Shown piece by piece: positions 39,095-64,000 of a stretch of DNA of 64,000 nt. Positions within the stretch are counted from its first letter, which is position 1, and each line of letters begins with the position of its first letter. The stretch comes from Janthinobacterium agaricidamnosum NBRC 102515 = DSM 9628 (GTDB lineage: Bacteria > Pseudomonadota > Gammaproteobacteria > Burkholderiales > Burkholderiaceae_D): assembly GCF_000723165.1 (NCBI RefSeq), contig NZ_HG322949.1, positions 2,208,234-2,272,233 of the forward strand, in the 5' to 3' direction. The notes below the pieces were generated by a model. The model was not told the DNA's origin and did not search any database. It worked only from the letters and a program-made list of their open reading frames with translations. The translations under genes and the position numbers were made by a program.

Positions 39095-39216
39095 CTTATT
39101 TCTATCATCACCACTCTAAAGTGGTTTTATATGCGGCGTCGCAGCATAATTGACTTGTCTCCTCTATCTCCTCCAAGGAAATAGATTCAGCCCGCTACTG
39201 TAGCGGGCTTTTTTTT
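39095..39216 (+). ncRNA. Candidate small RNA, tandem copy 1, with anti-SD motif and terminator
   Basis: A unit of about 120 bases begins after a GATATA -10-like element (39082-39087). It contains TTTCTATCATCAC, a short hairpin ACCACT/AGTGGT (39110-39125), a second hairpin ATGCGGCG/CGCAGCAT and an unpaired C-rich stretch TGTCTCCTCTATCTCCTCC (39156-39174). It ends in a terminator (stem 39189-39197 with 39201-39209, then eight T). CTCCTC and CTCCTCC are complementary to Shine-Dalgarno sequences, a common sRNA seed. No coding frame explains the conservation with copy 2, which lies exactly 182 bases downstream. The 5' end is inferred. Confidence 0.65.
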
Positions 39217-39276: not shown

Positions 39277-39398
39277 CTGATTTCTATCATCACAACAAAC
39301 AATTTGATTAATATGCTGCGATGCGTCAAGATGCATCTGTCTCCTCTATCTCCTCCAAGGAAATAGATTCAGCCCGCTCCCGTAGCGGGCTTTTTTTT
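39277..39398 (+). ncRNA. Candidate small RNA, tandem copy 2, with anti-SD motif and terminator
   Basis: This is the second copy, offset by 182 bases in every shared block: GATATT -10-like element (39264-39269), TTTCTATCATCAC (39281-39293), the C-rich segment (39338-39356) and terminator (39371-39398). Between the blocks the sequence differs strongly, yet hairpins recur at the matching places (CAAA/TTTG at 39296-39306, then GATGC/GCATC). This suggests selection on RNA structure and on the C-rich seed. The terminator stem is identical while its loop differs (CTG against CCCGT). Confidence 0.65.
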
Positions 39399-47643: not shown

Positions 47644-47697
47644 ATTTATTTGTCAATAATGCCACACTGCATGCCGACAGTGCATTGCCGTGCTTGA

Positions 47698-47727
47698 CTA
47701 GAATTATATTCTAGAAGATTATTCTAG
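47698..47727. promoter_or_regulatory. Two overlapping palindromes, candidate TetR autoregulatory operator
   Basis: CTAGAAT-TAT-ATTCTAG (47698-47714) shares its right arm with CTAGAA-GATTA-TTCTAG (47711-47727). The second ends two bases before the TetR start codon, so a bound protein would block the start region of that gene. Confidence 0.65.
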
Positions 47728-47729
47728 TC

Positions 47730-48392
47730 ATGCACACATCTGACACTTTCAAGGAACCGGGCGCGGTCATTGCCGCCGTGGACCGCAAGTCGGTCATCCT
47801 GGCCGCCGCGCTGGCCGTCTTTACGGAGAAGGGCGTGGTCGCGGCCACCGTCGACGATATCCGCCAGCGCAGCCAGGCTTCGGTCGGCAGCATTTATCAC
47901 CACTTCGGCACCAAGGAAGGCATCGCGGCGGCGCTGTTCATGCATGGCCTCGACGATTATTGGGGCCGCTTGCAGGTCAGTCTGCAAGCGGCGCCGAATG
48001 CCGAGCGGGCCATCCACGCCTTGCTGGAAACCCATCTGGTGTGGATCGTCGGCCAGCCGGACCTGGCGCGTTTCCTGTTTGCACGGCGCCAGGCGATCAG
48101 CGCGGACCATGAACAAGCGATCCGGCAACGCACGGCCGCTCATTTCAAGGCCTTGTTCGAATTGTTCAAACCCTGGTTCCGGCAGGGAATATTGCGCCGC
48201 CTGCCAGCCGAGCTGTATTCGCCGTTGCTGCTGGGGCCGGCGCAAGATCTGGCGCGCCACTGGCTCGGCGGCCGCATCGAGTTCGATCCACTCAGCGTGA
48301 TCGACGAACTGAGCGGCGCCGCCTGGCGCAGCCTGGCCGTCGATCCATCCCGGCCGGGTTCGGCCAGCGCCCCACAGGAATCCATGCCATGA
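47730..48392 (+). CDS. TetR/AcrR-family transcriptional regulator
   Basis: This is a 220-residue repressor-type protein. The N-terminal HTH is clear: VILAAALAVFTEKGVVAATVDDIRQRSQASVGSIYHHFGTKEGIAAALF. The C-terminal ligand domain is helical (ALLETHLVWIVGQPDLARFLFARRQ). It is divergent from the dehydrogenase/phosphotransferase operon, with palindromes in between, so it most likely represses that operon and itself. Its stop overlaps the next gene's start by 4 bases (ATGA). The ATG at 47730 has little leader behind the palindromes, so a short or leaderless transcript is possible. Confidence 0.92.
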   Translation: MHTSDTFKEPGAVIAAVDRKSVILAAALAVFTEKGVVAATVDDIRQRSQASVGSIYHHFGTKEGIAAALFMHGLDDYWGRLQVSLQAAPNAERAIHALLETHLVWIVGQPDLARFLFARRQAISADHEQAIRQRTAAHFKALFELFKPWFRQGILRRLPAELYSPLLLGPAQDLARHWLGGRIEFDPLSVIDELSGAAWRSLAVDPSRPGSASAPQESMP

Positions 48393-49264
48393 CACGCACA
48401 TCTTTTACCCTCGATACCGCCGATGGCCAGGTCTTGCGCGCGTATCGCTACCAGCCGCAACAGCAGGTGCGGGCGGAAGTGGTGATCGGACCGGCGATCG
48501 CGGTGCCGCAGGTGTTCTATACCTTGTTTGCCGGCCACCTGGCCAGCCTCGGCTACCGGGTCTGGACCTTCGATTACCGTGGCATCGGCGCATCGCGCTC
48601 GGGTTCGCTGCGTCATTGCCAGGCCGATCTTTTGACCTGGGTCGAACAAGACTTGAATGCGATGGTCCTGCATGCCAGCCGGCAAGTGGAAGAGGTGCCG
48701 CTGTTTTTGCTGGGACACAGCCTGGGCGGGCAAACCGCGCCGTTCCTGCCGGCGATACGGCAGGTCGCCGGCCTGATCAACATTTCCGTCGGCAGCGGCG
48801 CCGTGCGCCACAACCAGCCCGCTATGCGGCGTTCCGCGCAACTGCTGTGGCATGTGCTGGCGCCGGTGTTGTGTCCGTTGTTCGGGTATTTCCCGGGCAA
48901 GCGCATCGGCGTGGTCGGCGATTTGCCGCGCGGCGTCATGTTGCAGTGGCGCCGCTGGTGCCTGGCCCATGATTACATGCTGGACGGCGAGCCGGGTGCG
49001 CGGGCCGCGTATGCGCGCGCCAGCTATCCGGTGCTGAGCCTGTTTTTCAGCGACGACGAGTTACTGGCGGAAGCCGGATCGCGCATGCTGCACGACGCCT
49101 ACACCGGGACCGAGGTCGATTACCGGCCGCTCAGCCCGGCGCAATTCGATCTGCCGCGCATCGGCCATTTCGGGTTTTTCAAGCAGGAACAGGAAAAAAT
49201 CCTGTGGCCGCTGGTGGCCGACTGGCTGGCCCAGCGTTGTCCGCAGGCCGATCTGGCGGCCTGA
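48389..49264 (+). CDS. Alpha/beta-fold hydrolase
   Basis: This 291-residue hydrolase has the nucleophile elbow LLGHSLGGQTAPF (Ser in GHSLG), an oxyanion-hole region near IGPAIAVPQVFY, the strand VWTFDYRGIGAS, and the late LSLFFSDDELLAEAG and RIGHFGFFKQEQEKILWP, which carry the catalytic Asp and His. The GIGAS block and the C-terminal HFGFF are typical of a conserved proteobacterial group annotated as serine hydrolases, with no confirmed substrate. It is translationally coupled to the TetR gene, so it may act on an ester or thioester from the same lipid pathway. Confidence 0.85.
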   Translation: MTRTSFTLDTADGQVLRAYRYQPQQQVRAEVVIGPAIAVPQVFYTLFAGHLASLGYRVWTFDYRGIGASRSGSLRHCQADLLTWVEQDLNAMVLHASRQVEEVPLFLLGHSLGGQTAPFLPAIRQVAGLINISVGSGAVRHNQPAMRRSAQLLWHVLAPVLCPLFGYFPGKRIGVVGDLPRGVMLQWRRWCLAHDYMLDGEPGARAAYARASYPVLSLFFSDDELLAEAGSRMLHDAYTGTEVDYRPLSPAQFDLPRIGHFGFFKQEQEKILWPLVADWLAQRCPQADLAA

Positions 49265-49517: not shown

Positions 49518-52500
49518 ATGGTTCAGATGTCCCGGCGCCAGTTCCTTCGGGTAACTGGCGCGACAATTGCCGGCTCCAGCCTGGCCTTGCTCGGCTTTGC
49601 GCCGAGTACGGCCCTGGCTGAAGTACGCCAATACAAACTGGCGCGTACCACCGAGACGCGCAATACCTGCCCTTACTGCTCAGTCGGTTGCGGCATCCTG
49701 TTGTATGGTCTGGGCGACGGCGCGAAAAATGCCGTGTCCAGCATCATCCACATCGAAGGCGACGCCGACCATCCGGTCAATCGCGGCACCTTGTGTCCGA
49801 AGGGCGCCAGCCTGATCGACTTCATCCATAGCCCGAACCGTTTGAAGGCGCCGGAATACCGCGCGCCGGGCGGCACGGAATGGCAGCCGATCTCGTGGGA
49901 CAAGGCGCTCGACCGCATCGCGCGCCTGATGAAAGAGGACCGCGACGCCAACCTGGTCGAGAAAACCGCCGAAGGCAAGACCGTCAACCGATGGCTGACC
50001 ACCGGCATGCTGGCCGCGTCGGCCGCCAGCAATGAAGTCGGTTATTTGACGCACAAGGCCGTGCGCAGCATGGGCATGTTGACCTTCGATAATCAGGCGC
50101 GTGTATGACACGGACCGACGGTGGCAGGTCTTGCCCCGACGTTTGGCCGTGGCGCGATGACGAATCATTGGGTCGATATCAAGAATGCCGATGTGATCCT
50201 GGTCATGGGCGGCAATGCAGCGGAAGCACATCCTTGCGGATTCAAATGGGTCACGGAAGCAAAGGCGCATAACAAGGCCAAGCTGATCGTGGTCGATCCG
50301 CGCTTTACCCGTACCGCATCGGTGGCCGATTATTATTGCGCCACGCGAACCGGCACGGACATCGTTTTCCTCGGCGCGATCATCAATTACCTGCTGACGA
50401 ACGACAAGATCCAGCATGAGTACGTCCGCAATTACACGGACATGCCGTTCATCGTGCGCGAAGACTTCGGCTTCGAGGATGGCCTGTATTCCGGCTACGA
50501 CAAGGAAGCGGGCAAATACACCAGCAAGAGCAGCTGGGATTACGAAATGGGCGACGATGGTTATGCCAAGGTCGATCCGACCTTGCAACATCCGCGCTGC
50601 GTGTTCCAGTTGATGAAGAAGCACTATTCGCGCTACACGCCCGAGATGGTGCAGCGTACTTGCGGCGTCGCGCCGGACAAGTTCCACAAGGTTGCCGAGG
50701 CGCTCGCCTCGACCGCCGTGCCGGGACGCGCCGGCACCATCCTGTACGCACTGGGCTGGACCCATCACTCGACCGGCGCGCAAACCCTGCGCACCGGCGC
50801 GATGGTGCAACTGTTGCTGGGCAATATAGGCATCGCCGGCGGCGGCATGAACGCCTTGCGCGGCCACTCCAATATCCAGGGCTTGACCGACCTGGGCCTG
50901 CTGACCAACGCCTTGCCGGGTTATATGACGCTGCCGCTGGAAGCCGAGCAAGAGTACGAAACCTTTATCGGCGCGCGCGCCACCAAGCCATTGCGGCCGA
51001 ACCAGCTCAGCTACTGGAGCAATTACCGCAAGTTCCACGTCAGCTTCATGAAGACGTGGTGGGGCGACGCGGCCACCGCCGAAAATAACTACGCCTACGA
51101 TTATTTGCCGAAGCTCGACAAGCTGTACGATTTGATGCAAGCCATCGAGTTGATGCATCAAGGCAAGATGACCGGCTATATCTGCCAGGGCTTCAACGTG
51201 CTGGCGTCGGCGCCGAACAAGAAAAAGGTCACCGAAGGGCTGTCCAAGCTGAAATACCTGGTGGTGATGGACCCGTTGGCGGTGGAAACCAGCGAATTCT
51301 GGAAACCGCATGGCGAATTCCATGAAGTCGATCCGAGCAAGATCATGACCGAGGTGTTCCGCTTGCCGACCAGCTGTTTCGCCGAGGAACGCGGTTCGCT
51401 GGTCAGTTCGTCGCGCGTGCTGCAATGGCACTGGCAGGCGGCCGAACCGCCGGCCCAGGCGCGCAGCGACCTGGACATCATGTCCGGCTTGTTCTTGCGC
51501 ATCCGCAAGATGTACCAGACCGAAGGCGGCAAGTTCCCCGATCCTATCGTCAACCTGACGTGGAATTATGCGCATCCGGAAAGTCCGACGCCGGAAGAGC
51601 TGGCCAAGGAGTTCAATGGCCGCGCGCTGGCCGACCTGTACGATCCGAAAGACGCGACCAAGCTGCTGGTCAAGAAAGGCGAGCAATTGTCGTCGTTCGC
51701 CCAGTTGCGCGACGACGGCAGCACCGCCAGCGGCTGCTGGATTTTCGCCGGTTCGTGGACCCAGGCCGGCAATCAGATGGGACGCCGCGACAATAGCGAT
51801 CCGACCGGCATCGGCCAGACGCTGGGCTGGGCCTGGGCCTGGCCGGCCAACCGCCGGGTGCTGTACAACCGCGCTTCGTGCGATGTCAAGGGCAAGCCGT
51901 TCGACCCGACCCGCAAGCTGATCAGCTGGAATGGCAGCAGCTGGGGCGGCGCCGACATCCCCGACTTCAAGGCCGACGAACCGCCTGAAAACGGCATGGG
52001 CCCGTTCATCATGCTGGGCGAGGGCGTGGCGCGCTTCTTTGCGCGCGGCGCAATGGCGGAGGGACCGTTCCCCGAGCATTACGAGCCGTTCGAAAATCCG
52101 CTCGGCTACAACCCGATGCATCCGAAGAATCCGCGCGCGACCAGTAATCCGGCCGCCCGCGTGTTCGCCGACGACCGGGCCTTGTTTGGCACCCATGAGG
52201 AATATCCGCATGTGGCGACCAGCTACCGGCTGACCGAGCATTTCCATTTCTGGACCAAGCATGCCCGTTTGAATTCCATCATCCAGCCGCAGCAATTCGT
52301 CGAAATCGGCGAAGAGCTGGCCAAGAGTATCGGCGTGGTGGCCGGCGGCGATGTCCGCGTCAGTTCCAGGCGCGGCCACATCATCGCCAAGGCCGTGGTC
52401 ACCAAGCGCATCAAGACGCTGATCATCGACGGCAAGCCGGTGCACACGGTCGGTTTGCCGTTGCACTGGGGCTTCACCGGCGTGGCCAAGCCCGGTTATC

Positions 52501-52589
52501 TGATCAACACGCTGACGCCTGGCGTCGGCGATGCGAACTCGCAGACGCCGGAATTCAAGTCCTTCCTGGTGAAGGTGGAAAAAGCATGA
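49518..52589 (+). CDS. fdnG: Selenocysteine formate dehydrogenase, catalytic alpha subunit
   Basis: This 1023-residue molybdenum/tungsten bis-MGD enzyme oxidises formate to CO2. Residues 5-33 form a Tat signal (SRRQFL). A [4Fe-4S] cluster is bound by Cys 51, 54, 58 and 93 (CPYCSVGCG and GTLCPKG). Codon 197 (50106-50108) is an in-frame TGA between NQARV and HGPTVAGL, exactly where Sec stands in FdnG/FdoG. Reading resumes in frame to 52589, giving the same length as the Cys paralogue at 60495-63566. A SECIS hairpin follows the TGA. A tool without recoding would split the gene at 50108. It heads the operon fdnG-fdnH-fdnI, with fdhE-selA-selB-selC downstream. Confidence 0.96.
50106..50137 (+). 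promoter_or_regulatory. Sec UGA codon and bacterial SECIS hairpin
   Basis: TGA (50106-50108) is followed after 11 bases by a stem with a bulged T: GG (50120-50121), bulged T (50122), GGCA (50123-50126), loop GGTCT (50127-50131), TGCC (50132-50135), CC (50136-50137). The distance, the bulged U and the GGU loop match the E. coli fdhF/fdnG element recognised by SelB. Confidence 0.93.
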
Positions 52590-52602
52590 TGGGAGCACAA
52601 TA

Positions 52603-53526
52603 ATGTCTATGCAATCATTGGATATCCGGCGTTTGTCGGCCACCACGGTGCAGCCGCCGCAAGCGCGCACCCCGGTGACCGGCACGGTCGCCAAGCTGAT
52701 CGATGTGTCGAAATGCATCGGCTGCAAGGCGTGCCAGACCGCCTGTATGGAATGGAACGACTTGCGCGATGAAGTGGGCGAGAACCACGGCACCTACGAC
52801 AACCCGACCGACCTGACGCCGCAATCGTGGACCGTGATGCGGTTTTCTGAAGTGGAAAGCAACGACGGCAACCTGGAGTGGCTGATCCGCAAGGACGGCT
52901 GCATGCACTGCGAAGACCCGGGCTGCCTGAAAGCCTGTCCGGCGCCGGGCGCCATCGTGCAATACACCAACGGCATCGTGGATTTCCATCAGGAAAACTG
53001 CATCGGCTGCGGCTACTGCGTGGCCGGGTGTCCGTTCGACGTGCCGCGCATCTCGAAAAAGGACGACCGCGCCTACAAGTGCACCTTGTGCTCGGACCGC
53101 GTGGCGGTCGGCCAGGAACCGGCGTGCGTCAAGACTTGCCCGACCGGCGCGATTGTGTTCGGCACCAAGGAAGACATGCAGGAGCACGCGGCCGAGCGCA
53201 TCGAAGACTTGAAGTCGCGCGGGTTCGAGAATGCCGGCCTGTACGATCCGGCCGGCGTCGGCGGCACGCATGTGATGTATGTGCTGCACCACGCCGACAA
53301 GCCGACGCTGTACCACGGCCTGCGCAAGAACCCCAAGATCAGTCCGCTGGTCGGCTTGTGGAAGGGCGCCGCCAAACCGCTGGCGGTGGCCGGCATGGCG
53401 GTGGCGGCGCTGGCCGGGCTGTTCCACTATACCCGCATCGGGCCGAACGAAGTGAGCAGGGATGAGGAGCGCGAAGCGTTGGAAGAGGCGCGGCGCATCA
53501 AGGAGGATCAACATGAAGCACGGTAA
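52603..53526 (+). CDS. fdnH: Formate dehydrogenase iron-sulfur beta subunit (Sec operon)
   Basis: This 307-residue electron-transfer subunit has four Cys clusters for [4Fe-4S] centres: [40 protein letters not shown] and [21 protein letters not shown]. One C-terminal membrane helix lies at about 262-280 ([20 protein letters not shown]) and anchors it beside the cytochrome subunit. It passes electrons from the alpha subunit to haem b. It starts 14 bases after fdnG and overlaps fdnI by 14 bases. It is very similar to the protein encoded at 59560-60474. Confidence 0.96.
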
Positions 53527-54166
53527 CGACAAGCTGCGCGACAAGGATGGCAATCCCCTCATCGAGCGCTACAACCCGAACGAGCGCAGCAACCACTGGG
53601 TGACCGCGATCGCCTTCGTGCTGCTGGCCTTGTCCGGGCTGGCCATGTTCCATCCATCGATGGCGTGGCTGGCGCTGCTGTTCGGCGGCGGCCAGTGGAC
53701 CCGCATCCTGCACCCGTTCGCCGGGCTGGTGATGTTCGTCTCGTTCGCCTTGCTGGTCGTGCGCTTCTGGCACCACAACAAGTTCGAAGAGGGCGACACC
53801 CAGTGGCTGAAACAGATCGGCGACGTGCTCAACAACCGTGAAGAAAAGCTGCCGAAGATCGGCCGTTACAACGCCGGCCAGAAGCTGCTGTTCTTTACGT
53901 TGCTGTTTTGCATGGCCGGACTGTTTTTGTCGGGCATCGTCATCTGGCGCGCGTATTTCGCTTTCTATTTCCCGATCGACGTGGTGCGCGCGGCGGCCTT
54001 GCTGCACGCCTTCTGCGCCTTCGTGCTGATTGTCTCCATCATCGTGCATATCTATGCCGCGCTGTGGATCAAGGGCTCGATCGGTGCGATGGTGCGCGGC
54101 ACCGTCACTTACGGCTGGGCCCGCAAGCATCACCCGCGCTGGTTCGAGGAAGAGGCGCGCAAATAA
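53513..54166 (+). CDS. fdnI: Formate dehydrogenase cytochrome b556 gamma subunit (Sec operon)
   Basis: This 217-residue membrane subunit is read from ATG 53513, behind AAGGAGGATC. The longer frame to 53462 is not used. Four membrane helices are visible ([86 protein letters not shown]). The His in the first, second and fourth helices are candidate haem b ligands, as in the FdnI/FdoI family. It transfers electrons to quinone. It ends the structural operon, and a hairpin at 54212-54246 follows. Confidence 0.95.
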
Positions 54167-54211
54167 GCTTGCCTTAAAGTTGTCTTAAGGCCGTCTAATA
54201 GTTGCTTTCAG

Positions 54212-54246
54212 ATGCGGGCCGGATGCGATACTGCTCCGGCCCGCAT
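54212..54246 (+). terminator. Hairpin after fdnI, weak terminator
   Basis: A 12-bp stem (ATGCGGGCCGGA at 54212-54223 pairing with TCCGGCCCGCAT at 54235-54246) is followed only by CTCTTTAT. Read-through into fdhE is therefore likely, with reduced expression. Confidence 0.55.
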
Positions 54247-54307
54247 GCTCTTTATCGATTAAAATGCGTTGAAATACAGTCCAATCCAGCGGGTTGGCTG
54301 ACGACGC

Positions 54308-55360
54308 TTGACTTTTTGTGATGGGAAAACTCCATTGGTACAACGAATTCTTCAGCCAGGCGAAATTGAAGGACTGGACCACAACGCGATTCCGCGCCTG
54401 CTGCTGCCGCAGCCCGGCAGCCTGTTCAGCGCGCGCGCCCAACGGCTGCGCCAGCTGGCGCAAGGCGAAGTGGCCGGCATCCCGGTCGAAGCCAGCCTGC
54501 AAGGTTATCTGCTGCTGATGGCGCAATTGGCCGAGGCGCAAGCCGGGGTGGTGGCGTCCCTGACTCCTGATGCGATACCCCCGGCCGACGCCGAAGCGCT
54601 GTCGCGCGCGGCCAGGCACCGCATGCCGGTGCTGCCGGTCAGCGACGAACGCGCGCCGGTATGGCGCGACATCCTGCGCCAGATCCTCGACCGGCTCGAA
54701 AGCGCCGCCGCCGCTCAGCCGCCGCTGGCGGCCGTGCTGGCCGATTTGCGCGCGCAGGACGACAGGGCGCTGGAAGCGGCGGCCGACGCGGTCGTCGCGC
54801 AGGACGCCGGACAAGTCAATCCGCTGCAAGCGCCATTCATCGCCGCCGCGCTGCAAATCCTGTGGTCGGTGCGCGCCAGCGGCTTGCGCGCCAATCGCGT
54901 GCCGGAACTCGACACCGGCACGCTGTGCCCGGTATGCGGTTCGCACCCGGTGGCCAGCGTGATCCGCATCGGCGGCCAGTCGCAAGGCTACCGCTACCTG
55001 CATTGCGGCATCTGCGAAAGCGAATGGCATATGGTGCGGGTCAAATGCTCGACCTGCGAACAAAATGCCCATATCGCCTACCAGGGCCTGGATGCGGCCG
55101 ACGCGGCGCCGTTCGACCCGTCCGAGGAAGTCAGGAGCAAGTCCGGCAACAAGGCCAACGACCCGAAAAAGGTGGCCCGCGCCGAAACCTGCGAAGACTG
55201 TCATACCTACCGCAAGGTATTCAACCAGGAGCACGACTTGCATGTCGAAGCGGTGGCCGACGACCTGGCCAGCCTGATGCTCGACTTGCTGGTCGGCGAA
55301 GCCGGTTACCAGCGCGCCAGCGGCAATCCCTTGCTGTGGCTGGGAACGGACGGCGCATGA
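54308..55360 (+). CDS. fdhE: Formate dehydrogenase accessory protein FdhE
   Basis: This 350-residue rubredoxin-like maturation factor is needed for active formate dehydrogenase. Four CxxC motifs are visible: CPVC, CGIC, CSTC and CEDC, in the order of the FdhE family ([35 protein letters not shown] and [12 protein letters not shown]). The N-terminal [12 protein letters not shown] matches FdhE beginnings. The only in-frame starts are TTG codons (54308, 54335) because a stop lies at 54299. An ATG at 54321 is in another frame, so the exact start is uncertain. Its end overlaps selA (ATGA). Confidence 0.92.
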
Positions 55361-56763
55361 GCGCTACGCAAACCGTGCGCCTGCCGTCGATCGACCGCAT
55401 CCTCGGCGATGCGGCCTGCCAGCCGCTGATTGCCCAGTACGGCCGCAGCCAGACGCTGGCCGCGGCGCGCGCGTTATTGGCGGAACTGCGCGGTGCCATG
55501 CTGGGCGGCGCCACCGTGGCTGGCGCCGCGATCGATGAGTTAAGCGCGGAACTGGGGCGGCGCCTGGCGCGGCAAGTCCGCTCGCAACTGCGCCCGGTAT
55601 TCAACCTGAGCGGCACCGTGCTGCACACGAATCTGGGACGCGCGCTGCTGCCCGACAGCGCGGTGCAGGCGGTGGTCGAAGCGCTGCAGTGGCCGATGAA
55701 CCTGGAATTCGACCTCGACACCGGCAAGCGCGGCGACCGCGACGACCTGGTCGAGCAATTGCTGCGCGACCTGACCGGCGCCGAAGCGGCCACCGTGGTC
55801 AACAATAACGCCGCCGCCGTGCTGCTGCTGTTGTCGACGCTGGCGCCGGGCCGCGAAGTGATCGTCTCGCGCGGCGAGCTGGTCGAAATCGGCGGCGCCT
55901 TCCGCATCCCCGACATCATGACCCGCGCCGGCGCGCTGCTGCGCGAAGTGGGCAGCACCAACCGCACCCACCTGGCCGATTACGCCAACGCGGCCGGTCC
56001 CGACACCGCGCTGATGATGAAGGTCCATTGCAGTAATTATGCGATCACCGGTTTCACCAAGAGCGTCGAGCTGGACCAGTTGGTGCCGCTGGCGCGCCAG
56101 CACGGCATCCCGACCGCCGTCGACCTGGGCAGCGGCACGCTGGTCGACCTGGCCCAGTACGGCTTGCCGCACGAAACCACGGTGCGCGAAACCATCGAGG
56201 CCGGCGCCGACCTGGTCACCTTCAGCGGCGACAAGCTGCTGGGCGGCCCGCAATGCGGCGTCATCGTCGGCCGGACCGACCTGATCGCCAGGATCAAGCG
56301 CAATCCGTTAAAACGCGCATTAAGGGTCGGCAAGCTGACGCTGGCGGCGCTGGAACCGGTGCTGCAACTGTACCGCGCGCCCGACTTGCTGGCCGACCGC
56401 CTGACCACCTTGCGGCTGCTGACCCGGCCCGCCGGCGTCATGCAGCGCCAGGCGCTGGAAATCCTGCCGCTGTTGCAGCGAGTCGTTGGCGAGAACTATC
56501 GGGTGACGGCCGAGCCGATGACAAGCCAGATCGGCAGCGGCGCCTTGCCGGTCGATCAATTGCCGAGCTACGGGCTGGCGCTGCGTTGCGCGCCGGGCGT
56601 CCGTATCAGCAATGCGCTGGGCTTGCTGGAACAGCGGCTGCGCGGCTTGCCGCATCCGGTGATCGGCCGCATCCACCAGGATGCGCTGTGGCTGGACTTG
56701 CGCTGCCTGGAAGCGGGACACCAGCCTGTGTTCATGGAGCAACTGGAGCAACTGATTACATGA
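55357..56763 (+). CDS. selA: L-seryl-tRNA(Sec) selenium transferase
   Basis: This is a 468-residue PLP enzyme that converts Ser-tRNA(Sec) to Sec-tRNA(Sec) with selenophosphate. The catalytic Lys 293 lies in [13 protein letters not shown]. Other blocks are the N-terminal [58 protein letters not shown] and [13 protein letters not shown] chose ATG 55357, which overlaps the fdhE stop. The open frame continues far upstream in antisense-like composition and is not real. Its stop overlaps selB (ATGA), so the two are translationally coupled. Confidence 0.96.
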
Positions 56764-58700
56764 TCGTTGGCACCGCAGGCCATATCGACCATGGCAAGAC
56801 CACGCTGACGCGCGCCTTGACCGGCGTCCACACCGACCGCCTGAAGGAAGAACAGGCGCGCGGCATTTCCATCGAACTGGGCTATGCCTATCTGCCGCTG
56901 GCCGATGGCACGGTGCTGGGCGTGATCGACGTGCCGGGCCATGAAAAATTCATCCGCACCATGGCCGCCGGCGTCACCGGCATCGACTTCGCCTTGCTGG
57001 TGGTGGCGGCCGACGACGGCGTGATGCCGCAAACCCGCGAACACCTGGCCATCCTGCGCCTGCTGGGCGTGGTTCGCGGCGCGGTGGCGCTGACCAAGAT
57101 CGACCGCGTCGACGGCGAGCGGGCGGCCCAGGTCGAACTCGACATCCGGGCCCTGCTGGCCGATACCGCGCTGGCCGGCGCGCCGGTATTTGGCGTCGCC
57201 GCCACGCGCGACGGCGATCCCGGCGTGGCCGCCTTGCTGGCCCATTTGTCGCGGCAGGCGCGCGACTTGCCGCGGCGCGACGAGCGGCGTTTGTTCCGGC
57301 TCGGCGTCGACCGCGTGTTTACGCTGCCGGGGCAGGGCACCATCGTCACCGGCACCGCGCTGGCCGGGCGGGTCAAGGTCGGCGATACGCTGCAACTGGC
57401 GCCGGGCGGACAAACGTCGCGGGTGCGCAGCATCCACGCGCAAAACCGCGCCGCCGACAGCGGTCTGGCCGGCCAGCGCCTGGCGCTGAACCTGGGCGGC
57501 ATCGCCCGCGAAGATATCGAACGCGGCAACTGGATGGTCGCGCCGGCGCTGGCCGCGTGTTCCGAACGGATCGACGCCGAACTGACGCTGCTGCCCGATT
57601 GCGGCCTGACGTTGAAACCCTGGTCGCCGCTGCATGTGCACCTGGGCGCGGCGCACCAGGTGGCGCGGGTGGTGATGCTGGACGGTGAACAACTGGCGCC
57701 GGGCCAGCGCGGCCGCGTGCAACTGGTATTCGACACGCCGCTGCACGCGGTGCCGGGCGACCGTTTCGTGGTGCGCAATCCGCAAGCGACGCTGACGGTC
57801 GGCGGCGGGCTGGTGCTGGACCCGTTCGGCCCGGCCCGCAAGCGGCGCAGTCCGGCGCGCCATGCGTGGCTGGATGCATTGGCCGCGTTTATCGCGCACG
57901 ATGACTATGCGGCGCTGCTGGCGCTCAGCCCGTCGGGCCTGCGCCTGTCGCTGCTCCTGCGCCTGTCGCAACTGCCGGCCGAGCACATCGCGCTGCCGCC
58001 GGACACCCGCAAGATCGGCTTGCGCGGCGACGATACGCTGCTGCTGTCGCCAGCATCGTTCGAGGTTCTTGGCCAGCGCATCGTGCAGGCGCTGGACGGC
58101 TTTCACCAGCGCGCGCCGGATGAAGCGGGGCCGGAATTGTGGCGCTTGAAACGCATTGTCGACAGCGATATGGAAGACGCGCTGTGGAGCGCCTTGGTGG
58201 CCGACCTGCTGGAGCGCGGCGACTTGCGCCAGCGCGGCGCCAGCCTGCATTTGCCGAGTCACAGCGTCGAGCTGCGGCCGGAAGAGCAAGCCGTCGCCGG
58301 CCGCTTGCTGGCCGCGCTGGAGCAGGGCGCTTTCGATCCGCCGTGGGTGCGCGACCTGGGCCGCCAGTTTGCGCTGGAAGAGGGCGAAACCCGGCGCTTG
58401 CTGCGCAAATTGGCCAAGGCCGGCCAGGTCAGTCAAATCGTGCCCGACCTGTTTTACCATCCGGCCGCGCTGGCCAGGCTGGCGCAACTGGTCGCCAGCC
58501 TGGCCGCCGGCGCCGAGCAAGCCGGAGCGCAGCCCGGCGCCGGTGCGGTGGGCGCGGCCGCGTTCCGCGACGCCTGCGGATTGGGGCGCAAGCGGGCGAT
58601 ACAGGTTTTGGAATTTTTCGACCGGGTCGGTTATACTCGCCGTGTCGGCAACGGGCATTTATTGCGCCCGCATGCCGCGTGGTCTTATCGCGCCGCCTGA
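56760..58700 (+). CDS. selB: Selenocysteine-specific elongation factor
   Basis: This 646-residue GTPase brings Sec-tRNA to UGA codons marked by SECIS. The G domain shows [20 protein letters not shown] (G1), GISIELG (G2), DVPGHE (G3) and TKID (G4). Three beta-barrel domains follow, including [13 protein letters not shown], and then a C-terminal array of winged helices from about 400 ([28 protein letters not shown] is the last), which binds the SECIS hairpin. Length is normal for SelB. The gene ends 31 bases before the selC tRNA. The upstream frame continuation to 56253 is not used. Confidence 0.96.
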
Positions 58701-58731
58701 AGCCGGCGGCGCGTTCACTGTTGTCCGCATT

Positions 58732-58827
58732 GGAAAGCATACTCATCCGGTGATGTGGCCGGGCTTCAAACCCGGTGGAGGGCGTCAGCCGTTCTCCCGT
58801 AGGTTCGACTCCTACTGTTTTCCGCCA
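58732..58827 (+). tRNA. selC: Selenocysteine tRNA (anticodon UCA)
   Basis: This is a 96-base tRNA with the features of bacterial tRNA(Sec): an 8-bp acceptor stem (GGAAAGCA pairing with TGTTTTCC, one G-T pair), anticodon TCA at 58766-58768 in a CTTCAAA loop, a long variable arm (about 58776-58797), the T arm GTAGGTTCGACTCCTAC and an encoded GCCA end. It reads UGA as Sec together with SelA and SelB, encoded just upstream, and would serve the fdnG codon. Confidence 0.97.
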
Positions 58828-58844
58828 AATTCTCCTGTTATGAA

Positions 58845-58888
58845 AAACAAAGCCCCCTGGCGCCATCATCGCGCAGGGGGCTTTGTTT
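58845..58888. terminator. Bidirectional terminator between selC and the Cys formate dehydrogenase
   Basis: A 15-bp stem (AAACAAAGCCCCCTG at 58845-58859 pairing with CAGGGGGCTTTGTTT at 58874-58888) has T-rich flanks in both directions. It separates the convergent selenium block from the second formate dehydrogenase operon. Confidence 0.9.
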
Positions 58889-58900
58889 ACACCGGCCTAT

Positions 58901-59563
58901 TTACTTGTCGTGCTGGCGCGACTTCCTGACCACTTGTTCAAACCAGCGCGGATGGTGCTTGCGCGCCCATCCGTAGGTGACCGTGCCGCGCACCATCGCG
59001 CCGATCGAACCCTTGACCCAGAACGCGGCGTAGATGTGCACCACGATGGCACAAATCAGCACGAACGCGCAGAAGGCATGCAGCAGCAGGGCGAAGCGCA
59101 CCACGTCGATCGGGAAATAGAACGCGAAGTAGGCGCGCCAGATCACGATGCCCGACAACAGCAGGCCGCTCATGCAGCCGATCAGCGCAAAGAACAGCAG
59201 CTTCTGGCCGGCGTTGTACATGCCGATCTTCGGCAGCTTGTCTTCGCGGTTGTTGAGCACGTCGCCGATCTGCTTCAGCCACTGCACGTCGGCCTTGTCG
59301 ATGTGGTTGTGATGCCAGAAGCGCAGCGCCAGCAGGGCGAACGAGACGAACATCACCAGTCCGATGAAGGGATGCAGGATGCGCGTCCACTGGCCGCCGC
59401 CGAGGAACATCGCCAGCCAGGCGGTCGCCGGGTGGAACATGGCCAGGCCGGAGACCGCCAGCAGGATGAAGCAGATGGCGGTGACCCAGTGATTGCTGCG
59501 CTCATTCGGCGTGTAGCGCTGGATCAGCGGGTTGCCGTCCTTGTCGTGGCTGGATGTGCTCAT
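58901..59563 (-). CDS. Formate dehydrogenase cytochrome b556 gamma subunit (Cys operon)
   Basis: This 220-residue paralogue of the gamma subunit at 53513 has the same four helices ([86 protein letters not shown]) and conserved His positions. It begins [17 protein letters not shown], so only the extreme ends and scattered positions differ from copy 1. Its ATG overlaps the beta-subunit stop by 4 bases. It carries electrons to quinone for the Cys-type enzyme. A shared bidirectional terminator ends the transcript. Confidence 0.94.
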
Positions 59564-60474
59564 GATTGTTCCTCCCTGATCTGTTCGGCCTCGGCCAGCG
59601 CTTCGGCTTCCTCCGCCTTGCTGACTTCATTCGGTCCCACGCGCGAGTAATGGAACCAGCCCGCCAGCGCCGTGGCGGCGATGCCGGCCAGCGCCAGCGG
59701 CTTGCTCAAGCCTTTCCAGACGCCGACCATCGGGCTGATCTTCGGGTTCTTGCGCAAGCCGTGGTACAGCGTCGGCTTGTCGGCGTGGTGCAGCACGTAC
59801 ATCACATGGGTGCCGCCGACACCGGCCGGATCGTACAGGCCGGCATTCTCGAAACCGCGCGACTTCAAGTCTTCGATGCGCTCGGCCGCGTGCTCCTGCA
59901 TGTCTTCCTTGGTGCCGAAGGTGATGGCGCCGGTCGGGCAAGTCTTGACGCACGCCGGTTCCTGGCCGACCGCCACGCGGTCCGAGCACAGCGTGCACTT
60001 GTAGGCGCGGTTGTCCTTTTTCGAGATGCGCGGCACGTCGAACGGACAGCCGGCCACGCAGTAGCCGCAGCCGATGCAGTTTTCCTGGTGAAAATCGACG
60101 ATGCCGTTGGTGTACTGCACGATGGCGCCCGGCGAAGGACAGGCTTTCAGGCAGCCCGGATCTTCGCAGTGCATGCAGCCGTCCTTGCGGATCAGCCATT
60201 CCAGGTTGCCGTCGTTGCTTTCCACTTCGGAAAACCGCATCACCGTCCACGATTGCGGCGTCAGGTCGGTCGGGTTGTCGTACACGCCGACGTTTTCGCC
60301 GACCTCGTCGCGCAAGTCGTTCCATTCCATGCAGGCGGTCTGGCACGCCTTGCAGCCGATGCATTTCGATACATCGATCAGTTTGGCGACCGTGCCGGTC
60401 ACCGGCGTGCGCGCCATCGGCGGCTGCACCGTCGTCGCCGACAGGCGCTTGATATCAAGTGATTGTAATGACAT
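59560..60474 (-). CDS. Formate dehydrogenase iron-sulfur beta subunit (Cys operon)
   Basis: This is a 304-residue paralogue of the beta subunit at 52603. All four Cys clusters are intact ([36 protein letters not shown] and [21 protein letters not shown]), as is the C-terminal helix ([20 protein letters not shown]). It differs from copy 1 at few positions before residue 235 and more in the C-terminal tail ([20 protein letters not shown]). It is 20 bases downstream of the Cys-type alpha subunit gene and overlaps the gamma gene. I infer that it works only with its own operon partners, though exchange is possible. Confidence 0.95.
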
Positions 60475-60494
60475 TTTTTATTCTCCTCGGGCCG

Positions 60495-63400
60495 TCAGGC
60501 CTTTTCCACTTTGACCAGGAACGACTTGTACTCCGGCGTCTGGGTGTTGGCGTCGGCCGTTACCGGCGACAGGGTGTTGACCAGATATCCCGGCTTGGTC
60601 AGGCCGGTGAAGCCCCAGTGGGTCGGCAGGCCGACCGTGTGCACGCGTTTGCCGTCGACCTGCAGCGCCTTGATGCGCTTGGTGACCACCGCCTTGGCGA
60701 CGATCTGGCCGCGCTTCGAGCTGACCTTGACCCGCTCGCCGTGCGCCACGCCGATTTCCTTGCCCAGTTCTTCGCCGATCTCGACAAACTGTTCCGGCTG
60801 GACGATGGCGTTGAGCCGCGCATGCTTGGTCCAGAAGCCGAAGTGCTCGGTGAGCCGGTAAGTGGTAGCCACATGCGGGTACTCGGCCGCGGTGCCGAGG
60901 CGGGCGCGGTCGCCGGGGAACACGCGCGCCGCCGGGTTGCTGGTGGCGAGCGGATTCTTCGGATGCATCGGGTTGTAGCCCAGCGGCGTTTCAAACGGTT
61001 CGTAGTGCTCCGGGAACGGTCCCTCGTTATAGGCGCCGCGCGCGAAGAAGCGCGCCACGCCCTCGGCCAGCATGATGAAGGCGCCCATGCCGTTTTCCGG
61101 CGGTTCGTCGGCCTTGAAGTCGGGCGTATCCATGCCGCCCCAGCTGCTGCCGTTCCAGCTGATCACGGGACGGCTCGGGTCGAGCGGCTTGCCGTGCGCG
61201 TCGCAGGAGGCGCGGTTGTACAGGATGCGGCGGTTGGCCGGCCAGGCCCAGGCCCAGTTCAGCGTATTGCCGCTGCCGCTAGGGTCGCTGTTGTCGCGCC
61301 GCGCCATCTGGTTGCCGGCCTGGGTCCAGCAGCCGGAGAAAATCCAGCAGCCGCTGGCGGTGCTGCCGTCGTCGCGCAGCTGGGCGAAGCCCGACAATTG
61401 TTCCCCTTTCTTCAGCAGCAGCTTGGTAGGGTCCTTGGGATCGGGCACGCTGGCCAGCACGCGGCCGTTGAACTCCATCGCCAGCTCTTCCGGCGTGGGC
61501 GACGCCGGGCGCGCATAGTTCCAGGCCAGGTTGACGATCGGATCCGGATAGACCCCGCCCTCGGTCCGGTACAAGGTCTTCATGCGCAGGTGCAGCGCGC
61601 TCATGATGTCGATGTCGCTGCGCGCCTGGCCCGGCGGTTCCACGCCCTGCCAGTGCCATTGCAGCACGCGCGACGAGCTGACCAGCGAGCCGCTCTCTTC
61701 GGCGAAGCAGGTGGTCGGCAGGCGGAATACCTCGGTCATGATCTTGCCCGGATCGACCACGTTGAATTCGCCGTGCGGCTTCCAGAATTCGGCCGTTTCC
61801 ACCGCCAGCGGGTCCATCACCACCAGGAATTTGAGCTTGGCCAGCGCCTCGCTGGTCTTGTGCTTGTCCGGCGCCGAGCCCAGGATGTTAAAGCCCTGCA
61901 CGATGTAGCCGTTCATCTCGCCGTTGTGCATCAGTTCGATGGTTTGCACCATGTCGTACAGCTTGTCCAGCTTGGGCAGGTAGTCGTAGGCCCAGTGGTT
62001 GTCGGCCGTGGCGGCGTCGCCCCACCAGCTTTTCATGAAGCTGACGTGGAATTTGCGGTAATTGCTCCAGTAGCTGAGCTGGTTCGGACGCAGCGGTTTC
62101 AGCGCCCGCGTCTCGACGTACTTTTCATAGTCCTGCTCGGCCTCGCTGGGCAGCGTCAGGTAGCCCGGCAGGGCGCTCGACAGCAGGCCCAGGTCGGTCA
62201 GGCCCTGGATGTTCGAGTGGCCGCGCAGTGCGTTCATGCCGCCGCCGGAAATGCCGATGTTACCCAGCAGCAGCTGCACCATGCAGGCGGTGCGGATGGT
62301 CTGGGCGCCGTTGGAATGGTGGGTCCAGCCGAGCGCGAACAGGATGGTGCCGGCGCGGCCCGGCTTGGCCGTGGTGGCCAGCGTGTCGGCCACTTTCAGG
62401 AATTTTTCGCGCGGCACGCCGCAAGTGCGTTCCACCATCTCCAGTGTATAGCGCGCATAGTGTTTTTTCATCAGCTGGTACACGCAGCGCGGGTGCTGCA
62501 GCGTGGGGTCGACCTTGGCGTAGCCGTCGGCGCCGATTTCGTAGTCCCAGCTGATCTTGTCGGTATAGCGGCCTTTCTCCTTGTCGTAGCCCGAATACAG
62601 GCCGTCCTCGAAGCCGAAGTCCTCGCGCACGATGAACGACATGTCGGTATTGGCGTGCACGTAGTCGTGGTTGATCTGGTCGGTGGTCAGCAAGTGGTTG
62701 ATGACCGCGCCGAGGAACACGATGTCGGTGCCGGTGCGGGTGGCGACATAGTAGTCGGCCACCGAGGCGGTGCGGGTAAAGCGCGGGTCGACCACGATCA
62801 GCCTGGCCTTGTTGTGCGCCTTGGCCTCGACCACCCACTTGAAGCCGCAGGGATGGGCCTCGGCCGCGTTGCCGCCCATCGACAGGATCACGTCGGCGTT
62901 CTTGATGTCGACCCAGTGGTTGGTCATCGCGCCGCGGCCGAACGACGGCATCAGCGCGGCCACCGTCGGCGCGTGGCAGACCCGGGCCTGGTTGTCGAAG
63001 GCCAGCATGCCCATGCTGCGCGCCACCTTGTGGGTCAGGTAACCGGCTTCATTGCTGGCGGCCGAAGCGGCCAGCATGCCGGTGGAAAGCCATCGGTTGA
63101 CGGTCTTGCCGTCCGCCGTTTTCTGGACGAAGTGCGCATCGCGATCGGCTTTCATCAGCCGGGCGATGCGGTCCAGCGCGTCCGGCCAGGACATTTTCTG
63201 CCAGTCGCTGGCGCCGGGCGCGCGGTATTCCGGCACCAGCAGGCGGTTCGGACTGTGGATGAAATCGATCAGGCTGGCGCCTTTCGGGCACAGCGTGCCG
63301 CGGTTGACCGGATGATCCGGGTCGCCCTCGATGTGGATGATGCTGGGGATGGCGTTTTTTGCATGGTCGCCGAGGCCGTACATCAGCAAGCCGCAGCCGA

Positions 63401-63566
63401 CTGAACAGTAAGGACAGGTATTGCGTGTTTCCGTGGCGCGGCTCAGCTTGTATTGCCGGACTTCGGCCAAGGCTGTCGCCGGCATGAAGCCGAGCATCGC
63501 GAGGCTGGAGCCGGCGATGGTCGCGCCAGTAACCCCCAGGAATTGGCGGCGTGACATCTGCATCAT
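60495..63566 (-). CDS. Cysteine-type formate dehydrogenase, catalytic alpha subunit
   Basis: This 1023-residue paralogue of the Sec enzyme has identical length and register: Tat signal SRRQFL, [4Fe-4S] ligands Cys 51, 54, 58 and 93, and the same C-terminal [12 protein letters not shown]. At codon 197 (62976-62978) it has TGC, reading NQARVCHAPTVAAL, so Cys replaces Sec as the Mo/W ligand. The bases after the codon no longer form the SECIS hairpin (the GGU loop is lost). It can therefore be made without selenium, SelA, SelB or SelC, probably with lower turnover. It heads the minus-strand operon with its beta and gamma subunits. Confidence 0.95.
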   Translation of the reverse strand: MMQMSRRQFLGVTGATIAGSSLAMLGFMPATALAEVRQYKLSRATETRNTCPYCSVGCGLLMYGLGDHAKNAIPSIIHIEGDPDHPVNRGTLCPKGASLIDFIHSPNRLLVPEYRAPGASDWQKMSWPDALDRIARLMKADRDAHFVQKTADGKTVNRWLSTGMLAASAASNEAGYLTHKVARSMGMLAFDNQARVCHAPTVAALMPSFGRGAMTNHWVDIKNADVILSMGGNAAEAHPCGFKWVVEAKAHNKARLIVVDPRFTRTASVADYYVATRTGTDIVFLGAVINHLLTTDQINHDYVHANTDMSFIVREDFGFEDGLYSGYDKEKGRYTDKISWDYEIGADGYAKVDPTLQHPRCVYQLMKKHYARYTLEMVERTCGVPREKFLKVADTLATTAKPGRAGTILFALGWTHHSNGAQTIRTACMVQLLLGNIGISGGGMNALRGHSNIQGLTDLGLLSSALPGYLTLPSEAEQDYEKYVETRALKPLRPNQLSYWSNYRKFHVSFMKSWWGDAATADNHWAYDYLPKLDKLYDMVQTIELMHNGEMNGYIVQGFNILGSAPDKHKTSEALAKLKFLVVMDPLAVETAEFWKPHGEFNVVDPGKIMTEVFRLPTTCFAEESGSLVSSSRVLQWHWQGVEPPGQARSDIDIMSALHLRMKTLYRTEGGVYPDPIVNLAWNYARPASPTPEELAMEFNGRVLASVPDPKDPTKLLLKKGEQLSGFAQLRDDGSTASGCWIFSGCWTQAGNQMARRDNSDPSGSGNTLNWAWAWPANRRILYNRASCDAHGKPLDPSRPVISWNGSSWGGMDTPDFKADEPPENGMGAFIMLAEGVARFFARGAYNEGPFPEHYEPFETPLGYNPMHPKNPLATSNPAARVFPGDRARLGTAAEYPHVATTYRLTEHFGFWTKHARLNAIVQPEQFVEIGEELGKEIGVAHGERVKVSSKRGQIVAKAVVTKRIKALQVDGKRVHTVGLPTHWGFTGLTKPGYLVNTLSPVTADANTQTPEYKSFLVKVEKA

Positions 63567-64000
63567 AGTGACCTCTATCGCAGTGGGGATAAATTGCTTG
63601 ATGGTACTATTTTTCAGGGCAATAGATGGTTACAGTTCGGAAAGGTTGCTTTTTTGCGATAAAGGCCTTGCAACTATAGAGGGAGGGCCACAGAAAATAG
63701 GCGGACAATCCCTTGTGAACGGCGGTGGTTTACACCAAAGAATGATTTACTTGGTAGTAGCAGAAGTAATCAGGTGCTGGTTTCTGCGTGAACAGACCTG
63801 ATGGCGTGATTGCTTAATAATATATGCATCGACACTTATAGATACCATTGATGTTGATTAATTGATATTGAATTGGTCGGGTAGCCGTTGCCGAGTGACG
63901 GTTTGGCCAGATCGTGCAATAGTTTTAATGTCCTTCTTCCCTGGCAAAAAAACCGGCAATATTTGAATGCCTAAGTCATTGTTACTAAAGGAAAAGTATT
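63567..64000. other. Intergenic region upstream of the Cys formate dehydrogenase operon
   Basis: These 434 bases run to the window edge. They are AT-richer than the coding DNA and should contain the minus-strand promoter of the operon and GAGG just before its ATG. I see no convincing gene, terminator or named regulator site. Comparison with the bases upstream of 49518 shows no obvious shared promoter sequence. Confidence 0.45.

Follow-up and report, generated by a model that had tools for sequence, protein, structure and literature searches.

The stretch of DNA analysed here (the window) comprises 64,000 nucleotides of the chromosome of Janthinobacterium agaricidamnosum NBRC 102515 = DSM 9628 (contig NZ_HG322949.1) and carries two neighbouring operons predicted to encode formate dehydrogenase N (FDH-N), one with selenocysteine (Sec) and the other with cysteine (Cys) at the catalytic position of the alpha subunit (Table 1). 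The original prediction had read, on the plus strand, an fdnG gene with UGA at codon 197 and a selenocysteine insertion sequence (SECIS), followed by fdnH, fdnI, fdhE, selA, selB and selC, and then a convergent three-gene paralogue with TGC at codon 197, both alpha genes having 1023 codons in the same register; this arrangement was borne out. In both operons, alpha, beta and gamma scored above the curated cut-offs of TIGR01553, TIGR01582 and TIGR01583, which define membership of FdnGHI, and FDH-beta, FDH-gamma, FdhE, SelA and SelB all exceeded the NCBIfam cut-offs. The presence within one block of a selenoenzyme, selA, selB, selC and a Cys isoenzyme is thus supported by family matches, the tRNA-Sec and codon 197. 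The Sec decoding set, which had been called complete, includes selA, selB and selC in the block; selD lies about 0.5 Mb away on the same chromosome (G000:C1:1753714-1754640, 435.6 bits), so this wording was slightly too strong.

The in-frame UGA with its SECIS, together with selA, selB, selC and selD in the genome, identifies the plus-strand fdnG as a bacterial selenoprotein gene. The SECIS match in this gene (fdnG1) is not due to chance; a SECIS_3 search of the genome (150 of 3184 candidates scored) returned two matches, the fdnG1 element above the cut-off and a remnant in the Cys copy (fdnG2) below it. A hairpin was predicted for the fdnG1 element, but with a fold z of only -1.0, and no SECIS-like structure was found at the selA start, where 55300-55360 folded no better than shuffles. 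The two alpha subunits are of equal length and identical at 830 of 1023 positions, and five checked motifs (twin-arginine translocation (Tat), Fe-S cysteines and others) occupy equal positions in both. The twin-arginine motif of the Sec fdnG product, SRRQFL, was found at residue 5, and a full-length relative of solved structure, chain A of E. coli 1kqf, matched over query 2-1023 (1446 bits). The strong hairpin between the convergent units was absent from the output of the terminator scan.

Table 1. Features of the two formate dehydrogenase operons and the Sec decoding genes in the window
Feature	Coordinates	Strand	Evidence and remarks
fdnG (Sec copy), formate dehydrogenase-N alpha	49518..52589	+	Translated with TGA=U; UGA at codon 197; 1023 codons; TIGR01553, 1482 bits
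SECIS_3, overlapping then trailing the UGA of fdnG	50103..50161	+	81.2 bits (gathering score 63), E 1.2e-17
fdnH (Sec operon beta)	52603..53526	+	TIGR01582, 462 bits; quartet site counts show signs of exchange with the Cys copy
fdnI (Sec operon gamma)	53462..54166	+	Open reading frame (ORF); TIGR01583, 208 bits; real start perhaps an internal Met at ~53513 (translation)
fdhE, maturation factor	54308..55360	+	TIGR01562, 263 bits; TTG start uncertain
selA	55357..56763	+	TIGR00474, 581 bits
selB	56760..58700	+	TIGR00475, 449 bits
selC, tRNA-Sec, anticodon TCA	58732..58827	+	ARAGORN; Rfam RF01852, 71.2 bits (match 58732-58823)
Strong hairpin between convergent units	58845..58888		-31.5 kcal/mol, z -7.5, 0/200 shuffles as stable; terminator-like by shape
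fdnI (Cys operon gamma)	58901..59563	-	TIGR01583, 208 bits; groups with Duganella (7-row clade, 100/99)
fdnH (Cys operon beta)	59560..60474	-	TIGR01582, 463 bits
fdnG (Cys copy)	60495..63566	-	TGC at codon 197; 1023 codons, no internal stop; TIGR01553, 1444 bits; 81% identical to Sec copy
Decayed SECIS in Cys fdnG	62923..62981	-	SECIS_3, 37.9 bits, under gathering score 63; predicted fold unlike the SECIS hairpin

The Sec cluster fdnGHI-fdhE-selA-selB is ordinary for Burkholderiales. When the best 80 loci of a similarity search were compared, all six genes were present in 72, and the other eight were without one to four of them, some owing to contig ends. Codon 197 was TGA in 82 of 85 alpha places (the window and own-genome duplicates counted), the three others being the window Cys copy, the same copy again in L001 and that of Duganella guangzhouensis (L005). 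A further molybdoenzyme match, L003, resembled a nitrate reductase by eye in the ORF list. Among Janthinobacterium genomes, 33 of 40 had a match at E ≤ 1e-300, and the Cys copy was present in that of the window only (1 of 40); among Duganella genomes, 49 of 74 had a match and three carried a Sec/Cys pair (G226, G307 and G396 (D. guangzhouensis, L005)).

Wider samples were scored with two candidates per genome, so that extra copies may be missed. Of the 392 genomes in the family sample, 124 had a match; besides the pairs in the window genome (G000), G226 and G307, a Cys copy alone, 63% identical, was carried by G161 and G182. In the order sample (80 of 399), two genomes (G565 and G640) had UGA and stop-free copies on different contigs, the stop-free ones being 59% and 64% identical to the query, and in the class sample (10 of 369) the pair was found in the window genome only. 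The stop-free Cys fdnG genes of G182 and G161 (L123 and L124) have adjoining beta and gamma genes, and neither a match to fdhE, selA or selB (at least 38% identity over 80%) nor a tRNA-Sec was found within the 20 kb examined. Two adjoining UGA-type fdnG genes were also observed in another family of the order (G786, contig 4, 41035-48973).

In all four genomes with the pair, i.e., the window genome and the three Duganella genomes, the Cys triplet adjoins the Sec copy. The convergent arrangement was not recovered in these relatives; instead, the three Duganella pairs are tandem on one strand, in the order Sec fdnGHI, Cys fdnGHI, fdhE, selA, selB and then tRNA-Sec. The Cys triplet lies inside the cluster, ~167-170 bp past the Sec fdnI and ~86-109 bp ahead of fdhE.

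A protein tree was computed from 41 of the 118 distinct alphas after masking of the SECIS stretch, the distant Cys alphas of G161 and G182 serving as outgroup. The four Cys alphas formed one clade (100/100, stem 0.21), which was also a single clade in the DNA tree, and two database proteins seen without genomic context (P0003 and P0004; 86% and 88% identical) enlarge it. This clade was nested in a 29-row clade (100/100) of Janthinobacterium, Duganella, Massilia, Rugamonas, Glaciimonas and their kin, the other 25 rows of which are Sec forms; Collimonas fell outside. Nesting among Sec forms and a SECIS remnant, here seen in the window copy, mark a Sec-to-Cys converted paralogue, and together they point to a single replacement, the simplest reading being one Sec-to-Cys change within the family. 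The two window alphas are not sisters (approximately unbiased (AU) test, p 2.5e-6). Judged from the low nonsynonymous divergence (dN 0.08-0.10) between the window and Duganella Cys copies, against a synonymous divergence (dS) of 0.45-0.57, the Cys alpha is under purifying selection. For the Sec copies, the dS between window and Duganella was 0.72-0.82; the lower value of the Cys copies points to transfer after host divergence. Horizontal spread of the Cys copy fits best, and horizontal transfer of the Sec trait has been described (in passages of PMC1273633). An independently acquired Cys copy, unrelated to the Sec copy, had been named as the finding that would overturn the prediction; half of this held, in that the copy appears to have been acquired but is still a homologue of the Sec copy.

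The beta and gamma genes gave other groupings. Within a Duganella genome, the two alphas differ by 24-25% and the two betas are 95-96% identical in all three cases, and the six Duganella betas form one clade (100/100). In the window, DNA identity between the operons is 73-87% per 150 columns in alpha and reaches 95-96% mid-gene in beta, the beta copies being 91% identical. In topology tests, which were run after the trees had been inspected, a single clade of the four Cys betas was rejected (p 0.0105); in the best tree, the pairing of the window betas had a support of only 75/69. The window Cys gamma and the six Duganella gammas, from either operon, made up a 7-row clade (100/99), and pairing of the window Cys gamma with the window Sec gamma was rejected (p 0.0039). 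Duplication of the operon, as the original prediction supposed, is thus rejected as a local event for alpha and gamma, and not for beta.

We also counted sites in a quartet of window-Sec, window-Cys, Janthinobacterium G026 and D. guangzhouensis Cys. Sites joining the two window copies versus those joining the two Cys copies numbered 45 versus 232 in alpha, 30 versus 32 in beta and 8 versus 35 in gamma, so that beta alone has strong signs of local exchange, though not over its full length. In the beta core (codons 60-240, with borders picked after the profile had been viewed), the window pair had synonymous differences in 19 of 169 codons, compared with 29 of 97 at the ends; when the window Sec copy was set against G026, 42 of 161 core codons differed synonymously. 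A border-free scan found an unusually similar 100-codon beta stretch in the window pair (p 0.03); of the five control pairs, three had one too (p 0.001-0.003). Since the controls dip likewise, the beta similarity is partly general conservation, and the scan does not establish the borders of a tract. For beta exchange, the quartet counts are better evidence than the conversion-tract scan. Selection holding the Sec and Cys alphas apart would yield such a mosaic, and chance placement of exchange tracts could do so too.

A second trace of Sec loss may be seen at codon 204, which sits in the SECIS apical loop. Among 141 pattern matches in UGA copies, which come from overlapping and hence non-independent loci, this codon was GGT in 138 and AGT in 3, i.e., glycine or serine; the 18 distant Sec rows had glycine (12) or serine (6), and all four Cys alphas had alanine. 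We then considered the best 120 of at least 6606 database relatives, using a wider motif that lost 2 rows (a narrow one had dropped 75 of 118). Cys was at the catalytic position in 112 of these, with residue 204 being alanine in 95, glycine in 13 and serine in 4; six rows had W or R at the catalytic position and two were without the motif. The 13 glycine rows among Cys-type relatives, which are related to each other, indicate that Ala204 is not required. In these six FdnG records (P0019-P0022, P0024 and P0032), the catalytic residue is W (5) or R (1), possibly through a misread UGA. The pattern at residue 204 fits a release from the SECIS constraint after Sec loss, and no discussion of this residue was found in the passages and listings examined, which is not a claim that it is unpublished. 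With low probability, these observations could be joined in one scheme, in which the catalytic subunits alone are kept distinct by selection and the operons swap electron-transfer subunits, selenium would decide which of two interchangeable alphas sits on a shared beta and gamma, and the Cys alpha has been freed from the codon 204 imposed by the SECIS.

The original prediction had suggested that the two operons might be expressed reciprocally, and the sequence has given this no support so far. Upstream of the operons, little was found that could set their expression. Comparison of the Sec and Cys operon upstream regions of the four genomes revealed nothing shared above shuffle level (30 shuffles), and the four Cys upstream regions were alike only around the ribosome-binding site, with no other conserved block; those of Duganella share slightly more among themselves. 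Sigma-70-like sites numbered 5 in the window stretch, versus a shuffle mean of 2.8 (standard deviation 1.7), and 4 in Duganella L121, versus 1.5 (standard deviation 1.2), and terminator-like sites numbered 15 versus 13.1 and 14 versus 10.3, respectively. In both scans, promoter-like sites were present ahead of the Sec fdnG and none was found in the scanned stretch ahead of the Cys fdnG (434 bp in the window); being convergent, the window Cys operon must have its own promoter. Scans with consensus patterns for FNR-like and sigma-54-like sites gave nothing convincing, the FNR-like site near the Cys operon (63848-63861, one mismatch) being at chance level. No LysR-type match or candidate for a selenium-type regulator was found among the 15 neighbouring ORFs scanned, a distant regulator not having been sought. 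The Duganella gene order, with the Cys triplet between Sec fdnI and fdhE on the same strand, fits joint rather than opposite expression of the operons.

We consider it probable that the block encodes two quinone-linked respiratory enzymes of the FDH-N type, the Cys alpha of which arose once from a Sec fdnG, spread as an fdnGHI unit and provides a selenium-independent bypass, its expression probably not being opposed to that of the Sec enzyme. Both enzymes would be exported by the Tat route, as suggested by family and motif. The Sec enzyme would depend on selenium, SelA, SelB, selC and SelD; the Cys enzyme would need none of these and would offer an alternative path for formate electrons, with FdhE shared by both. 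The Cys alpha would have originated inside the Oxalobacteraceae by a change from UGA to Cys followed by SECIS decay, and the fdnGHI unit would have moved between Duganella-like and Janthinobacterium-like hosts, where it adjoins the Sec cluster in the four known genomes; beta would later have exchanged sequence with the resident operon, and alpha would not. If the Duganella operons are co-transcribed, both enzymes would be made with selenium and the Cys enzyme would act alone without it, with no regulator needed. A bypass sharing FdhE is the simplest model, and we rank it, as a passive one, above a reciprocal switch; the description of the Cys enzyme as a "backup" is plausible.

Several points weigh against this reading. 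A single Sec-to-Cys change in E. coli formate dehydrogenase H (FDH-H) cut turnover >100-fold (in passages of PMC6288185). The Cys clade has an uncertain position within the family (protein tree 87/85, DNA tree 44/17), and a single clade of the four Cys gammas is compatible with the data (p 0.272). GC content at third codon positions is 0.85-0.93 in the Cys alphas versus 0.79-0.86 in the Sec alphas, clearly higher in three of the four genomes and the reverse in none; this can lower dS and thus weakens the transfer argument. No empty insertion site was found in the relatives compared. Finally, an operator could be missed in a set of just four genomes, and the Duganella gap and the convergent placement in the window leave room for separate promoters and regulation.

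Four other explanations, which do not exclude one another, were weighed. That each enzyme is used under conditions of its own (oxygen, formate level or metal), selenium supply not being why both are kept, is possible and the best placed of them, although the Cys bypass appears clearly more probable. At 22 alpha positions, 21 of which lie outside the SECIS, the four Cys rows share a residue that at least 90% of the 112 near Sec rows lack. In E. coli FDH-H, the Sec-to-Cys change reduced turnover but also Km (in passages of PMC6288185), and the Sec form goes with anaerobic conditions in most of six selenoprotein families (in the part of PMC1794560 consulted). No condition-specific site was found, however, the FNR-like site being at chance level.

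A selenium-responsive reciprocal switch, in which selenium represses the Cys operon and its depletion induces it, as for Treponema primitia fdhF, is slightly less likely still. The fdhF genes of T. primitia shift up to 40-fold with selenium, and the Acetobacterium woodii pair is assumed to behave alike (both in passages of PMC6288185); in Methanococcus maripaludis, a LysR-type regulator, HrsM, represses Cys isogenes (in passages of PMC11097638). Separate convergent units with a strong intervening hairpin would permit such control, but we found neither a shared or conserved upstream motif nor a candidate regulator among the neighbouring ORFs scanned. Moreover, fdhE, selA and selB follow the Cys triplet on one strand in Duganella, so that repression of the triplet could cut selA and selB expression too, unless internal promoters exist.

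A transient horizontal acquisition of the Cys operon, with no lasting function, is improbable: it would suit the rare and patchy distribution, but the reading frame is intact, the checked motifs are retained and alpha dN is well below dS. The genes closest to the Sec operon encode a hydrolase and TetR, and those closest to the Cys operon AbiEii and a chloride channel. Consistent with a gain, none of the other 39 Janthinobacterium genomes had a match (E ≤ 1e-60) to the chloride-channel gene. In the search for an empty insertion site, G002 and G010 had counterparts of the TetR and hydrolase genes (47692-49239) at 72-73% DNA identity, but past the block they gave only short protein-level stretches (26-35% identity), and no match to the Sec-cluster flanks was found in the stretches of G026 and G033 examined. 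Carriage of the Cys clade on plasmids was not seen, as none of 1052 plasmid records with a match reached 80% identity. A gene with an AbiEii nucleotidyltransferase toxin domain was observed just past the window end, upstream of the Cys operon (L125 6679-7728, plus strand, 101.5 bits), and the Betaproteobacteria toxic small RNA (RF02278) occurs at two neighbouring places in the window (39156-39216 and 39338-39398, plus strand, 59.3 and 60.2 bits). That the Sec operon was recently duplicated in place, one copy then mutating to Cys in the window strain, would be favoured by the similarity and pairing of the beta copies. It is extremely unlikely, since it is ruled out for alpha and gamma by the tests above and Cys alphas of the same clade are present in three Duganella genomes.

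Sec/Cys formate dehydrogenase pairs are already known. The original prediction drew its analogy from Methanococcus, which is loose: M. maripaludis likewise has Sec and Cys isoenzyme sets in one genome, but it is archaeal, its FdhA, a methanogenesis selenoprotein, is without a Cys isoform and its LysR-type repressor is known (in passages of PMC11097638), whereas none was found beside the window operons. T. primitia and A. woodii are closer parallels (in passages of PMC6288185). In T. primitia, fdhF-Cys and fdhF-Sec also lie in one region, but 14 genes apart, and their selenium regulation has been shown. In A. woodii, fdhF1 (Cys) and fdhF2 (Sec) are alpha paralogues, 80% identical, in one cluster, for which selenium-dependent choice was assumed; that pair belongs to a hydrogen-dependent CO2 reductase (HDCR), whereas here a whole three-gene FDH-N operon is doubled beside selA, selB and selC. 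The same Sec-to-Cys change, in the same broad family and with a SECIS remnant, is described for bacterial FdhA, e.g., in Mannheimia (in the part of PMC1794560 consulted), but here the Sec form is kept beside the Cys form. Compared with the common six-gene cluster of Burkholderiales, the window adds the Cys fdnGHI triplet. No account of the locus was found in titles and abstract openings on Janthinobacterium selenocysteine or Duganella formate dehydrogenase, which cover the literature in part.

The window pair thus adds an instructive evolutionary record to the known pairs: four genomes display a Sec-to-Cys event with the Sec form and its Cys derivative adjoining. The gain of selenium over sulfur in formate dehydrogenase is still termed elusive (in passages of PMC10779653), and two FDH-N enzymes per cell, alike in sequence and differing at the catalytic residue, would provide a natural comparison of selenium and sulfur.

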